Below are positions 28,220-34,010 of a DNA stretch of 36,595 bases, one piece after another; within the stretch, counting starts at the first letter, position 1; every line of letters begins with the position of its first letter. The notes under the pieces were generated by a model, which made no database searches, was not told the DNA's origin, and saw nothing but the letters and a program-made list of their open reading frames with translations. This stretch comes from a virus, in the IMG/VR virus record IMGVR_UViG_3300009519_000009, positions 1 to 36,595 of that record. The stretch is one strand, 5' to 3'. Both the position numbers and the translations under genes were made by a program.

Positions 28220-28624
28220 TTAACATACCCCAACTGCCAACTTTTCCACCGTCACGCTGACGAACGACGTCACGTCGTATTTTTTCACGACGTTGAGATG
28301 CGCGACCTGTGCGTCGTCGACGAAGACAATCGTGCTGATCGCGTCCTTGACGATCTTGGCGACGTTGTCCGCGTCCGGTTTGCTCGACTTCCAATAGGCG
28401 CTCGCCTTGCGCTTTTTCGACCACGATTCAGGCACGAGATAGGCCGCGTGGACGCGCATCGAAACCGGGCCTTCGAGCGGCGGCGCGCCCTTCATCGCCG
28501 CGGCGGCGATCGTGCGCACCGCAGTCATGAAATCGGCCTGTTTCTTCGGGGTGAAGCGGCGCTTTCCTTGCGCGCCGGCGCGCGCGAACGGCACCGGCTC
28601 GCCTGGGACGGTGAACGACACCAT
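28220..28624 (-). CDS. rusA: RusA-family Holliday junction resolvase
   Basis: 134 residues from the ATG at 28624 (TGATG overlap with the DnaA-like gene). The start reads MVSFTVPGEPVPFARAGAQG K and the key motif is SKPDADNVAKIVKDAI (81-96) with acidic residues D84 and D86, followed by VFVDDAQVAHL (100-110) with D103/D104. These are the metal-binding Asp positions of RusA, a dimeric enzyme that cuts four-way junctions during phage recombination and before packaging. Length is near the usual 120 residues. The 3' end touches the decayed IS, and the last codons may have been altered by it. Confidence 0.88.
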   Translation of the reverse strand: MVSFTVPGEPVPFARAGAQGKRRFTPKKQADFMTAVRTIAAAAMKGAPPLEGPVSMRVHAAYLVPESWSKKRKASAYWKSSKPDADNVAKIVKDAISTIVFVDDAQVAHLNVVKKYDVTSFVSVTVEKLAVGVC

Positions 28625-29202
28625 CAGCCGCGAGCCCCTATTCTCGATTTCAGGCATTCAATGCGCGCGAAAAATTCAGGATCGCACGACATCATGCGTT
28701 CGATCTTTCGTACCGCGTGGAGAATTGTTGTGTGATTGCGTCCGCCGAATGCGCGCCCGATCTTCGGATATGAATCCGGACGGAGCGCCTTCGCCAGATA
28801 CATCGCGATCATTCTCGGAAAAACGACCTCATTGGTTCTGCGCTCGCTTTCCATGTTGGATACGGGAATCTGGAAAGCCTCGGCCACGACGCATTTGATC
28901 AACCTGGTCGATGGCGCGGGGGCAAACTCAGACCGTCGAATCCAATCATCAATTATCCAATGAGCGACCAGATAGTCGTCGCAGGTGATCGGACCCAGCT
29001 CGATCGGGGCAACGTGGACCGACGCGATCCGATTGATTGGCGTGAGACGCGGGGCGGCAATTCGAAGCACGCGGCTAGGAATCATTCCCATGCGGGCGCG
29101 ACGGGCCTTAGCGGCCTCGTGCTGGCGAATGAGAGCGTCGCTGTAGCCACGGGCTTGATATGCCTTGGCGATGAAAGGTGGGGTGGATTCGACGTGACTC
29201 AT
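28624..29202 (-). CDS. DnaA domain IV-like DNA-binding protein
   Basis: 192 residues, GAGG before the ATG. Residues ~100-175 match the DNA-box-binding domain of DnaA: VVAEAFQIPVSNMESERRTN EVVFPRMIAMYLAKAL then SYPKIGRAFGGRNHTTILHA V, which is the DnaA signature helix region (GRDHTTVLHA in DnaA). The AAA+ ATPase is missing; residues 1-95 are a different, basic N-terminus. Such stand-alone domains are common in alphaproteobacterial phages and may bind host or phage DnaA boxes to redirect or block replication initiation. It sits with rusA and the methyltransferases in the early region. Confidence 0.85.
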   Translation of the reverse strand: MSHVESTPPFIAKAYQARGYSDALIRQHEAAKARRARMGMIPSRVLRIAAPRLTPINRIASVHVAPIELGPITCDDYLVAHWIIDDWIRRSEFAPAPSTRLIKCVVAEAFQIPVSNMESERRTNEVVFPRMIAMYLAKALRPDSYPKIGRAFGGRNHTTILHAVRKIERMMSCDPEFFARIECLKSRIGARG

Positions 29203-29214
29203 GACGCTACCTCT

Positions 29215-31356
29215 TTATTCCGATTGGTCCGATGGTGCGATTGGATCGAGGGCGACAAAGAACTTGCGTTTGCTTCGACCTCGCGCATATTTCTGTTGGC
29301 TGTTGGCTGTTGGCTCGGCGAACAGCGGCCCGTGATCTGCGGGCTTGTCGCCAAGTCTAGCCTTGATGCTTTCGCGGCGACGCTCGTCTGGCCCGGCGAG
29401 ACAAAGCGCCATCCGCCGCGCAATATCGGCTTGGTATTCAGCCTCGCGCTCGATCAGCACGGCGTTAAAGCCCTCGCGCCACGCCGCCTCGCCCGTCGTG
29501 CCGGTGCCACTAAACGGGTCCAAAACTACGGAGCGTTTAAGCTCTAAGATTGAGCCACAATGCGGACAGGTCGGCTCGTCACGATCAGCCCTTGGCAATG
29601 AGGACACGTCAGGGTGCTTTGACGAGGAAGGTTCAGTTTGTCGTGGTCGCCCTTCAGCATTAATTGAAGATTTTCTAGACGATTGTCCGTCTTGACATGA
29701 TTGATGTGATGGACGACTTCGTTGGTCGTCAGAAGGCGGCCAAAAGCCCTTTCCATCACCAGCCGATGTTCGAATAGGTAGCCTCCTTGCGGTTTCGATT
29801 GAGGGTGATCCGGCATATAGATCAGCTTGTATCCCCTCTTCGAGATTAGGAACGGCTTGCGGTTTTTCTTGTGCTTCGCCGTCCAGCGACAAGCACACAG
29901 CTTCCCGCAACATCGCTGCGCCGAACTCGTCGGCTGAAACCTCTTGCCGCAGGTCGCGCAGGTTTTCGGTTTCAGCATCATCGCCGCGCTCGCGCACGGC
30001 TTGCTGCAAAAGCGGCTCCGATGTTTGTTGTCGCGCGGCTTGAACATCTCGCCGCACTGTTCGCATGGGCGAATCGGAACCGATTGTTTTTGCGCTATTT
30101 TCATACGCCAGCTTAGCACATTGTGGACATACGAGTCTAGGAGGCGGCGTCACCAGCCGCACCAGCCATTGCATCAGATCGACCGGCTTGACAGTCGGAT
30201 GCTTGGAGCCAAGGCGATCGTCAGAATCCGCTTTCGCCGAATAAAAAAAGCGGGCGGCGGAGCCGGAATCGCCGCGTGGCTCAAACTGTTCGCGCGGCCC
30301 GTAATCGCCATAGGCATTGACGGATGATTTGGCCCCATTGCGTGGCCCCACCGCCGCCAATTGTCCATTGCTCTCGGGAAACGCCGCCAGCACTTCCTCC
30401 GAGCCGTCATGGACGATGTTTGCCGGCCAGCGGCCGGCCAGCGCGAACGGGTCATAAGTGTTCGTCCCGTCGCGGCTTTCCTTGCCGATCGAGTTGGATT
30501 GGCGCGCGCTGCCGCGCGCGCGGCTGGCGGCGAAGCCAGCGGCGGCGGCGGCGGCTGCATCTTCCGTGCCAGCAAAGCCGACCCGCGTCGCATCGACATT
30601 GATCGCGCCCGTTCCCCAGCGCAGCACGTTCGCCGCGACGGTTTTCTCGCTTAGCGGCTTGCGCGCCAGGCAGATCGGCTCCCAAGCCGGCTTCAGCGCC
30701 GTCCCCCAGCCCTGCCATGCCGCCGCCTCGGCGCAGGGCGCCTCATCCGACAGCGCCTCGTGAAAATCCTTCGCAATGGCCGCGACCCGCCACGGCCGAT
30801 CACCGTCGGAATCGACGCCGCCGACCAGGTTCGGCGGATTTTTCAGGCGCTCGGCCTCGATCCGAACCTTTGCGCGTTCGTGGCCGAGCGCCTTGTCGAT
30901 CCCCTTGCTGACGTCATGCGATTTCGGAAAGCCGCTGCCGTAGACCCAGGCGAGCTGATCGCGGATCTCGAAACCGGAATCCTCGATCGCGCAGGCCAGC
31001 CGATGATAGGAGCGCGTGCCGCCGAACGCGATCAAGTGGCCGCCCGGCTTCAGCACGCGGAACATTTCGCGCCAGAATTCGACCGCAAACGCGACGGCTC
31101 CATTGTCCCACTCTTTCCCCATGAACCCTTTGGCGAGCCGAGCATAGCCATCAGCGCCGCAGCGCGAGCGATCAGAGGTTAGCGTGTCGTCTGCCTGCGA
31201 CGTCTTGCCGAACCGCTTGACGATCGACACCAAGGCGTAGGGGGGATCGCAGACGCAGGAATCGATAGAGGCGTCCGGCAATGCCCTCACGATGGCGAGA
31301 CAATCGCCGCGATGCAGCGTCACGCGCCCATCGAGGAATGAGGCAGCCTCGCTCAT
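29215..31356 (-). CDS. DNA methyltransferase with a large HNH-bearing insertion
   Basis: 713 residues. N-terminus: TLHRGDCLAIVRALPDASID then CDPPYAL (36-42, catalytic motif IV) and the helix FREMFRVLKPGGHLIAFGG. C-terminus: SVVLDPFSGTGTTGEAAWRE (609-628, SAM-binding motif I), so the motif order is that of beta-class N6-adenine/N4-cytosine enzymes. Between the conserved HPTVKPVDLMQWLVRLVTPP (~385-404) and motif I, homologues have at most a short zinc-ribbon; here CPQC (~409) and CPHC (~597) are separated by ~185 residues of non-conserved sequence. That stretch coincides with an HNH gene in another frame (29544-30104). The frame stays open throughout. The start overlaps the HD-domain gene (ATGA). 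Activity is uncertain because of the insertion. Confidence 0.8.
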   Translation of the reverse strand: MSEAASFLDGRVTLHRGDCLAIVRALPDASIDSCVCDPPYALVSIVKRFGKTSQADDTLTSDRSRCGADGYARLAKGFMGKEWDNGAVAFAVEFWREMFRVLKPGGHLIAFGGTRSYHRLACAIEDSGFEIRDQLAWVYGSGFPKSHDVSKGIDKALGHERAKVRIEAERLKNPPNLVGGVDSDGDRPWRVAAIAKDFHEALSDEAPCAEAAAWQGWGTALKPAWEPICLARKPLSEKTVAANVLRWGTGAINVDATRVGFAGTEDAAAAAAAGFAASRARGSARQSNSIGKESRDGTNTYDPFALAGRWPANIVHDGSEEVLAAFPESNGQLAAVGPRNGAKSSVNAYGDYGPREQFEPRGDSGSAARFFYSAKADSDDRLGSKHPTVKPVDLMQWLVRLVTPPPRLVCPQCAKLAYENSAKTIGSDSPMRTVRRDVQAARQQTSEPLLQQAVRERGDDAETENLRDLRQEVSADEFGAAMLREAVCLSLDGEAQEKPQAVPNLEEGIQADLYAGSPSIETARRLPIRTSAGDGKGFWPPSDDQRSRPSHQSCQDGQSSRKSSINAEGRPRQTEPSSSKHPDVSSLPRADRDEPTCPHCGSILELKRSVVLDPFSGTGTTGEAAWREGFNAVLIEREAEYQADIARRMALCLAGPDERRRESIKARLGDKPADHGPLFAEPTANSQQKYARGRSKRKFFVALDPIAPSDQSE
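29544..30104 (-). CDS. HNH endonuclease nested out of frame in the methyltransferase gene
   Basis: 186 residues from the ATG at 30104. N-terminal part: two zinc-knuckle pairs (CEQCGEMFKPRDN, FCSKPC, CATCGKRFQP, CCGKLCACRW). Core: GGYLFEHRLVMERAFGRLLT TNEVVHHINHVKTDNRLENL QLM (108-149), the standard HNH motif of phage homing-type nucleases (His 113, HH 132-133, Asn 141/145). It finishes with a further CPHC (167-170). It lies wholly inside the 713-codon methyltransferase frame on the same strand. Both frames are open. A mobile nuclease gene inserted into a conserved enzyme gene is typical of homing, but normally an intron, intein or a clean intergenic site is used. Translation could start internally; no strong SD is seen. 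Confidence 0.75.
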   Translation of the reverse strand: MKIAQKQSVPIRPCEQCGEMFKPRDNKHRSRFCSKPCASAAMMLKPKTCATCGKRFQPTSSAQRCCGKLCACRWTAKHKKNRKPFLISKRGYKLIYMPDHPQSKPQGGYLFEHRLVMERAFGRLLTTNEVVHHINHVKTDNRLENLQLMLKGDHDKLNLPRQSTLTCPHCQGLIVTSRPVRIVAQS

Positions 31357-32803: not shown

Positions 32804-32910
32804 GATCGAGCCTCCGCGCGTATGATGTTGAGTTCGGTTCCAAATTCGGCGATTTTTCGCTCGATTTTTCTGACGAGAATCTCATTCATGCCTATCCGGT
32901 TTTCACCCAT
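32800..32910 (-). CDS. 36-residue coupled ORF
   Basis: ATG at 32910 inside the end of the methyltransferase gene, 36 codons, ending in a GTGA overlap with the GcrA-like start. Product: MGENRIGMNEILVRKIERKI A then EFGTELNIIRAEARS, a charged helix of coiled-coil type. Overlaps at both ends match the operon style, which supports it. A later ATG at 32889 is also possible. Confidence 0.45.
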   Translation of the reverse strand: MGENRIGMNEILVRKIERKIAEFGTELNIIRAEARS

Positions 32911-33931
32911 TGCCGCTATCCGTTGTGGTGTCCGAGAACAGCCCCGCGTCGCCCTCGATCCGGCGCTTCGTCATGTCGGCATATTTGGGATTGAGTTCGA
33001 TCAAGGTAGCGTTGCGGCCGAGGCGATCGGCGACGAGTCCCGTTGTCCCGGCCCCGGCGAATGGGTCGAGCACCGTGCCCCCCTTCGGGCATCCCGCCAA
33101 GATGCAGCGCTCGGCGAGCTTCGGCGGGAAGGTGGCGAAGTGCGCGCCCTTGAACGGCTGAGAGGCGATCGTCCAGACGTTACGGGCGTTCGCGCCCATG
33201 CCGCTGGAGCGGACAGCCTTCATCGGTCCATTGGTCTTGCCGCCGCCGTTGGCGCGCGACGAACCGGCCTGCGACTCGACGTCCTGGGCGAGCCGCGCAA
33301 TGCTCGACGGCGCGAGCGGCTCGCGGATCGCGTCGGCGTCGTAGAAATACCGCGCACTCTTGGTCAGCAGCCAAATCTTCTCATGCGCACATGTCGGCCG
33401 GTCCGTGACGCTTTCCGGCATGGGGTTCGGCTTGTTCCAGACGATTTCCGAGCGCACCCACCACCCGTCGTCTTGGAGAGCAATTGCCAAGCGGTTCGGA
33501 ATCATGCAGAGGTCTTTCCCCTTCAACCCGATTGGGATTCCCTGGTTCGCCGCGCGTCCACCACCACGCGTAATTATATAGTCCTGCTTGCCCGAGTCTC
33601 CTGGTTTGTGCTGCCCTTTTCCGGGATCGCGAGCGTAACTGTCCCCGACGTTGAGCCAGAATGTACCGCCAGGCTTGAGCACGCGCCTGATCTCGCGGCA
33701 GACCACGACCATCGTTTCGAGATAGGCCGTCATCGTCGGCTCTAAGCCAATCTGTCCGGCGACGCCGTAGTCGCGCAGGCCCCAGTAGGGAGGGCTAGTA
33801 ATCACGGCGTCAAAATGGTTTGCCGGAAGCGTCGGGAGGATGTCCCGGCAGTCGCCATGCAAAATAGTCGTGGTGACTGCTCCCCGGCCTGAAGGCCAGG
33901 GCTTCCCAGACGGGTTGCCGGTCTCAGACAT
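32903..33931 (-). CDS. DNA methyltransferase (beta class, SPPYW type) with an IS-derived N-terminus
   Basis: 342 residues from the ATG at 33931, AAGGAG six bases upstream. Motif IV is TSPPYWGLRDYG (45-56), commonly seen in N4-cytosine and some N6-adenine enzymes; the SAM-binding loop is GTVLDPFAGAGTTGLVADRL near 290-309. Conserved internal landmarks: LKPGGTFWLNVGDSYA, WVRSEIVWNKPNPMPESVTD RPT, HEKIWLLTKSARYFYDADAI RE. The conserved fold begins at about residue 21 (TTILHGDCRDILPTLP). Residues 1-20 (MSETGNPSGKPWPSGRGAVT) are encoded by the right end of the adjacent tnpB element, so the original start was probably replaced. It lies just upstream of the GcrA-like gene, so it may set methylation read by that regulator. 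Cognate sequence unknown. Confidence 0.85.
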   Translation of the reverse strand: MSETGNPSGKPWPSGRGAVTTTILHGDCRDILPTLPANHFDAVITSPPYWGLRDYGVAGQIGLEPTMTAYLETMVVVCREIRRVLKPGGTFWLNVGDSYARDPGKGQHKPGDSGKQDYIITRGGGRAANQGIPIGLKGKDLCMIPNRLAIALQDDGWWVRSEIVWNKPNPMPESVTDRPTCAHEKIWLLTKSARYFYDADAIREPLAPSSIARLAQDVESQAGSSRANGGGKTNGPMKAVRSSGMGANARNVWTIASQPFKGAHFATFPPKLAERCILAGCPKGGTVLDPFAGAGTTGLVADRLGRNATLIELNPKYADMTKRRIEGDAGLFSDTTTDSGNG

Positions 33932-34010
33932 TTGGGGCTCCTTCAACAAGGCTCGCCAGTCCGCGAGCGAGAATGTGCTTTGCGGAGTTCACGTCTCTGT
34001 CGTGGACAGA
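33873..34010 (-). ncRNA. Candidate omega-RNA scaffold at the tnpB 3' end
   Basis: In IS200/IS605 elements the reRNA/omega-RNA covers the tnpB 3' end and the right end, and its guide is the sequence just past the element. Here that would be the methyltransferase codons after 33873 (encoding TTILHGDC). Extent is approximate and inferred from family knowledge; the right-end hairpin at 33882-33901 is visible. Confidence 0.35.

Follow-up and report, generated by a model that had tools for sequence, protein, structure and literature searches.

An HNH endonuclease gene nested out of frame within a viral DNA methyltransferase gene that stays open

Nested HNH genes and the locus studied here

Homing endonucleases are thought to require introns, inteins or intergenic sites so that the host gene survives, and HNH endonucleases are commonly carried by introns or inteins. 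An out-of-frame HNH in mycobacteriophage methylases, the ShiLan domain, was published in 2025 (PMC11855218), the ShiLan element having been described earlier by Gosselin et al. 2023 (PMC9957025). A target duplication at the 5′ end of the ShiLan insert is reported at the protein level, and no selection test on the host frame is given (PMC11855218). The same paper describes a hidden HNH insertion at another site, in Pacc40 gp60, and another case is mentioned in a 2025 genome announcement (PMC12613952). Our literature search for an out-of-frame HNH in a host gene returned nothing beyond these three papers.

We analysed a stretch of viral DNA of 36,595 nucleotides, an IMG/VR virus record (hereafter the window). 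The first-pass annotation had proposed that an HNH gene lies out of frame inside a methyltransferase gene that stays open, and this is confirmed by the two open reading frames and their matches to PF13392 and PF01555 (Table 1). The nested frame matches PF13392 (HNH_3) with an E value of 1.3e-10 and 41.2 bits, against a gathering cut-off of 24.8 in Pfam, and phrog_20891 with an E value of 4e-24. Its product has CxxC zinc-finger-like repeats at the N-terminus, followed by the HNH_3 domain and a CPHCQ tail at the C-terminus. The catalytic His/Asn columns of the HNH are invariant (alignment A7), whereas the number of N-terminal zinc-finger-like units varies among HNH copies, which amounts to whole-codon indels in the host frame. 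An AlphaFold model of the HNH, with nine locus homologues, has a mean pLDDT of 83; its top match in the PDB is the homing endonuclease I-HmuI (1u3e), with a Foldseek probability of 0.94 but a weak E value of 0.06. The methyltransferase retains both the DPPY and the FxGxG motifs.

Table 1. Positions of the nested gene, its host gene and their landmarks in the window
Feature	Position	Strand	Basis or remark
N6/N4 DNA methyltransferase, 713 aa, insert-bearing host	29215..31356	-	PF01555 E 2.7e-21; phrog_67
DPPY catalytic motif, intact, methyltransferase aa 37-40	31237..31248	-	sequence
Insert in host frame, methyltransferase aa 405-610, 206 codons	29527..30144	-	4-residue joint in insert-free relatives; net +606 nt
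First putative zinc-ribbon half CPQC, host frame, aa 410-413	30118..30129	-	just upstream of HNH start
TGCTAAGCT, TGnTAnnnT, extended -10-like	30110..30118	-	ends 5 nt ahead of HNH ATG
HNH endonuclease ORF, 186 aa + TAG, other frame than methyltransferase	29544..30104	-	ATG at 30104, TAG at 29544
HNH_3 core, HNH aa 113-151, EHRLVME...NEVVHHINH.KTDNR.ENL	29652..29768	-	Pfam; alignment
CPHCQ, HNH frame, in conserved C-terminal tail	29592..29606	-	overlaps region of host-frame second ribbon half
Second putative zinc-ribbon half CPHCG, host frame, aa 597-601	29554..29568	-	overlaps HNH ORF end
SAM-binding motif I, VLDPFSGTGTTG	29491..29526	-	immediately 3′ of insertion point; sequence comparison

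Several neighbouring genes can be described in passing. A second, smaller methyltransferase-like frame of 348 aa lies close upstream of the main one (window 32903-33949, minus strand), and the two have the motif I region in common (55% over aa 607-649). The gene adjoining the methyltransferase downstream (window 28624-29202, minus strand) encodes a DnaA C-terminal DNA-binding domain (PF08299, E 7e-25), and RusA (PF05866) comes next after it.

The insert, its putative ribbon and its relatives

It is evident from comparison with relatives that the segment has been added to the methyltransferase. In the loci retrieved, all 61 insert-free relatives have exactly four residues, of PGGV type, separating the conserved VTP from VLDPF, and the window has 206 there; in the homologues without the insert the segment is thus absent rather than conserved, as the alignment suggested by the first-pass annotation was able to establish. 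At its two ends, the insert carries CxxC...CxxCG pairs in the host frame, which are missing from all 61 insert-free relatives. The first reading had described about 185 codons with no conserved residues between two zinc-knuckle-like pairs of the methyltransferase. The description fails at the ends of the segment, where the ribbon halves are conserved, and the pairs arrive with the insert instead of being original parts. The ribbon cysteines are kept in all six copies of the insert and in a scar-like relative (both described below). The insert-free L196, an empty relative of a second methyltransferase subfamily, likewise has no such ribbon, and therefore the ribbon halves move along with the insert. 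In an AlphaFold prediction of the insert-bearing methyltransferase, the core is well predicted, residues 490-591 have pLDDT below 50, and no clear zinc ribbon is visible. The cysteine pairs may bind zinc and so join the ends of the loop. A search for a DNA-level repeat of the target at the 5′ end of the insert found no more than chance would give (P > 0.2 for each of the six copies).

The HNH could conceivably be borne by an intein or by a self-splicing intron of group I or II, so that the segment would be missing from the host product. Such elements are the usual vehicles of HNH nucleases, and the patchy distribution of the segment is as expected for them. However, an Rfam search matched no intron family, and a Pfam search of the host frame matched no intein or Hint domain, although the same kind of search does flag the intein of a terminase gene (L066, see below). 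The HNH frame also fills 561 of the 606 net nucleotides, leaving no space for a ribozyme. Moreover, an open host frame would be unnecessary for an intron and is strongly maintained here, and the ribbon cysteines are conserved in that frame. We therefore regard a splicing element as very improbable. The authors of PMC11855218 too decided against an intron or intein for ShiLan.

Protein searches and searches with DNA patterns (ribbon plus motif I; HNH tail plus ribbon) identified five more viral contigs that are arranged in this way (L084, L177, L181, L187 and L190). All six copies share the relative frame, the HNH_3 domain and the host-frame cysteine pairs flanking the HNH, and in all of them the insertion point, here called site A, is just ahead of VLD[PC]FxGxGT. 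The hosts are non-actinobacterial-looking phages of 38-69% GC, and their methyltransferases fall into two subfamilies. Although methyltransferases of the two subfamilies barely align, their HNHs share 41-46% identity, and therefore the module has moved. No close pairs are found among the six copies, which is consistent with homing or with an older transfer. A viral scan with query A1 returned nothing beyond L084, a scan of genome_contigs with query A2 gave no match, a scan of the same set with the ribbon pattern gave one match (L180, cyanobacterial and unrelated), and tblastn of the L177 linker against phages gave no match. Many methyltransferases with this linker may be present in bacterial databases, a point that is not used as evidence here.

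One further relative, L179 (12214-13734, minus strand), has a methyltransferase with the ribbon and a short loop, and has no HNH domain. Its other frame encodes RKPITCPHCQGMIKVSGRVRTVEAL followed by a stop, which corresponds to the HNH tail. In the HNH frame, 20 of 25 residues of this tail are identical to L084 and 17 of 25 to L187; the figure for the host frame is 9 of 22. The simplest reading of these sequences is that L179 is probably the scar of an in-frame HNH deletion that left the ribbon behind. Alternatively, the order might be reversed, with an overprinted tail that predates the insertion. Another candidate scar, L057 (3100-3117, plus strand), in which the methyltransferase is broken at precisely site A, was rejected, the break being a frameshift in a G10 homopolymer. 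This run, in a contig of 31% GC, could be either a phase-variable tract or a sequencing error.

Two reading frames in one segment

Each host codon in the segment consists of the third base of HNH codon i and the first two bases of codon i+1, and the host frame is stop-free throughout. We estimated how often this would be so by holding the HNH protein fixed, drawing synonymous codons and computing the probability that the host frame has no stop, P(open). In the window, P(open) is 1.5e-6 with the codon usage of 12 other window genes, 2.8e-5 with that of the flanking methyltransferase and 1.4e-5 with that of the HNH itself. With their own usage, the other copies give 1.8e-3 (L084), 2.3e-3 (L177), 5.9e-3 (L187), 4.3e-4 (L181) and 4.8e-4 (L190), and the AT-rich L084 (38% GC) gives 9e-8 under the codon usage of its locus. 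All 54 free-standing HNH ORFs are closed by stops in both alternative frames. A host-frame stop can arise only where a T-ending HNH codon precedes AAx, AGx or GAx, and in the window HNH none of the 46 codons ahead of such triplets ends in T, compared with 33 of 139 at other places. These results show that the host frame is selectively maintained open and is not open by luck.

The first-pass annotation had also allowed for a very recent insertion that was in phase by luck, and long spurious ORFs do arise in high-GC DNA, so that the overlap might be fortuitous and the dual coding unselected. A few nested cases elsewhere are by themselves unremarkable, with P(open) of 0.56 in L160 and 0.35 in L159. 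For the window, however, a probability of about 1e-6 to 3e-5, the still lower value at 38% GC in L084, the closed frames of all 54 controls, the absence of T-ending codons at the sensitive positions and the fact that six homologues, although diverged, are without exception open and share one relative frame, make chance a highly unlikely explanation.

Conservation is also clearly higher in the HNH frame than in the host frame. Identity in the HNH frame versus the host frame is 0.51 versus 0.28 between the window and L177, and 0.66 versus 0.49 between L181 and L190. Once the constraints of the HNH protein and of openness are allowed for, the surplus of similarity left in the host frame is concentrated in the tail, where the second ribbon half is encoded. 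Outside the tail, a test for selection on the linker sequence gave a host-frame identity above the null (z = 2.4) no larger than that of the unused third frame (2.7), and the hydropathy of the linker in the host frame does not depart from expectation given the HNH; therefore, only openness and the ribbon are supported as constraints. From these comparisons, the host-frame linker looks to be constrained to openness and the ribbon cysteines rather than to a particular sequence. Part of the surplus similarity could be residual ancestry, since the third frame has some surplus as well.

How the nested frame would be initiated bears on another alternative. No Shine-Dalgarno sequence is found ahead of any of the six site-A HNH starts, and a scan for the sigma-70 consensus found no promoter. 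In all six homologues a TGnTA motif is present, and in five of the six TGnTAnnn(T) ends 5-6 nucleotides ahead of the start. The distance from TGnTA to the HNH start is 14 or 15 nucleotides in five copies, while its register to the host frame varies. The motif could hypothetically represent a leaderless promoter layout. The missing Shine-Dalgarno sequences, and an overlap on the same strand that would permit it, speak for ribosomal frameshifting into a methyltransferase-HNH fusion, or for ribosomes bypassing the insert, in place of independent initiation. Against frameshifting, each of the six HNHs has an in-frame ATG or GTG ahead of its first zinc finger, the TGnTA spacing is held as the host register shifts, and SD-like motifs stand ahead of nested HNHs at other sites (ShiLan, L160, L056 and L078). 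Bypass would leave the open host frame superfluous. We consider these alternatives unlikely and favour an internal start. As to ShiLan itself, PMC11855218 reports no detectable ribosome-binding site for its HNH, whereas GGAGG lies four bases upstream of the GTG start of the HNH in L199 (Mycobacterium phage ShiLan), near locus 3045.

The arrangement had been called rare, which has to be qualified in that it is not unique, having been published in 2025 (PMC11855218) and recurring in several viral contigs. Among 80 viral loci retrieved with the methyltransferase query, nested HNHs occur at other positions in L050, L051, L056 and L078, and L076 is a further case that is cut at its 5′ end. Across a wider set of loci, ten methyltransferase loci have an HNH inside and in none of them is the host frame broken, a count that is not unbiased because some loci were chosen for a methylase annotation spanning the HNH. 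L163, L164 and L159 are the ShiLan element, and the annotated phages Bipolar, Murica and Mantra bear the published ShiLan domain. In a 'DNA methylase' of Cylindrospermopsis phage Cr-LKS3 (L160:2375-4354, plus strand), outside the mycobacteriophages, an out-of-frame HNH lies near the ShiLan site, and its ATG has GGAGG seven bases ahead. A nested HNH is also found in a C5 methyltransferase (L017). The large terminase subunit of a phage contig of 33% GC (L066:2027-4288, minus strand) contains an intein (PF14890) with an out-of-frame HNH ORF inside it (P(open) 0.004).

In our sample, nested HNHs are found most often in methyltransferases, which might suggest a restriction-modification-like addiction unit, the methyltransferase protecting the sites cut by the nested HNH, and no homing. 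The sample itself was drawn by methyltransferase queries, however, and nested HNHs occur elsewhere too, in the terminase intein and the C5 methyltransferase. Furthermore, the HNH is missing in most relatives and PADLOC gave no match for the HNH frame. Such a unit has accordingly very little probability in our view.

A probable homing element without splicing and its comparison with known systems

The insert is probably a non-splicing homing element that is tolerated as a clipped loop in the methyltransferase. This reading is favoured because empty relatives exist, the openness is in excess, the HNH frame is conserved, the module occurs in two subfamilies, L179 resembles a scar, the HNH model matches I-HmuI, no intron or intein was found and ShiLan provides a precedent (PMC11855218). 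It agrees with the proposal, made in the first reading and supported here, that an HNH gene of homing type was inserted and is read in one frame, while translation of the methyltransferase continues across it in another and yields an inert loop beside a zinc ribbon.

Under this model, the HNH gene and its short flanks, about 606 nucleotides, would insert ahead of the strongly conserved DNA of SAM motif I, which is presumed to be the homing-target region. The HNH protein would be translated in the second frame from an internal start of its own, possibly by leaderless initiation, and would cut insert-free methyltransferase alleles at motif I, whereupon recombination would copy the element in. 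The host would stay usable, the insert length being a multiple of three with no host-frame stop. Its translation product would include a linker of some 180 residues, hydrophilic and for the most part disordered, and the CxxC...CxxCG ribbon would clip the ends of this linker together. We infer from sequence that both products are translated, that the HNH cleaves and homes, that the ribbon binds zinc and that the methyltransferase is active. A broader claim is possible, although we would stop somewhat short of calling it probable: that such elements form a splice-free mobile class, in which one frame encodes a homing nuclease and the host frame a disordered loop together with a zinc-ribbon clip, the two frames acting as one selected dual-coding unit, mobile among unrelated methyltransferase genes and leaving the host enzyme working.

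Besides introns, inteins and intergenic sites, the locus would then show another route, in which a nuclease gene is in phase with the host frame and tolerated as a clipped loop. The 2025 mycobacteriophage finding extends beyond actinophages. The openness calculation allows hidden nested nucleases to be tested for quantitatively. For annotated methyltransferases of phages and prophages that have a long linker devoid of features, such an insert is a ready explanation. The locus also offers a natural dual-coding system in which constraint is measurable for each frame.

Like ShiLan, the window has a zinc-finger HNH ORF on the same strand and out of frame in a phage DNA methylase whose frame is open; the distribution is patchy, there is no intron or intein signature, homing is proposed and the host-frame product is predicted to be a loop. 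Unlike ShiLan gp65, where the insertion is in the KPxxEP region, the window site is directly ahead of SAM motif I and the relative frame is another one. The kind found in the window further differs in having a putative host-frame zinc ribbon, two methyltransferase subfamilies and a probable deletion scar, in its non-actinobacterial-looking phages, and in a TGnTAnnnT motif in place of a Shine-Dalgarno sequence. Pacc40 gp60 similarly has an HNH-like ORF out of frame within an open methylase gene, but by its description the methylase family and the insertion site differ; for Pacc40, related free-standing HNHs lie upstream of related methylases. The HNH fold and DNA-binding layout are like those of I-HmuI and HNH_3-type homing endonucleases, although I-HmuI resides in a self-splicing group I intron and the window HNH is without a splicing element. 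Homing-endonuclease inteins are also inserted at conserved protein motifs, keep the host frame open and are patchily present, whereas the nuclease in the window is out of frame and the splicing domain is absent. The kind itself is thus known, and what is new here is the site, the putative host-frame ribbon, the relative frame, the phages, the two host subfamilies, the probable scar and the openness test.
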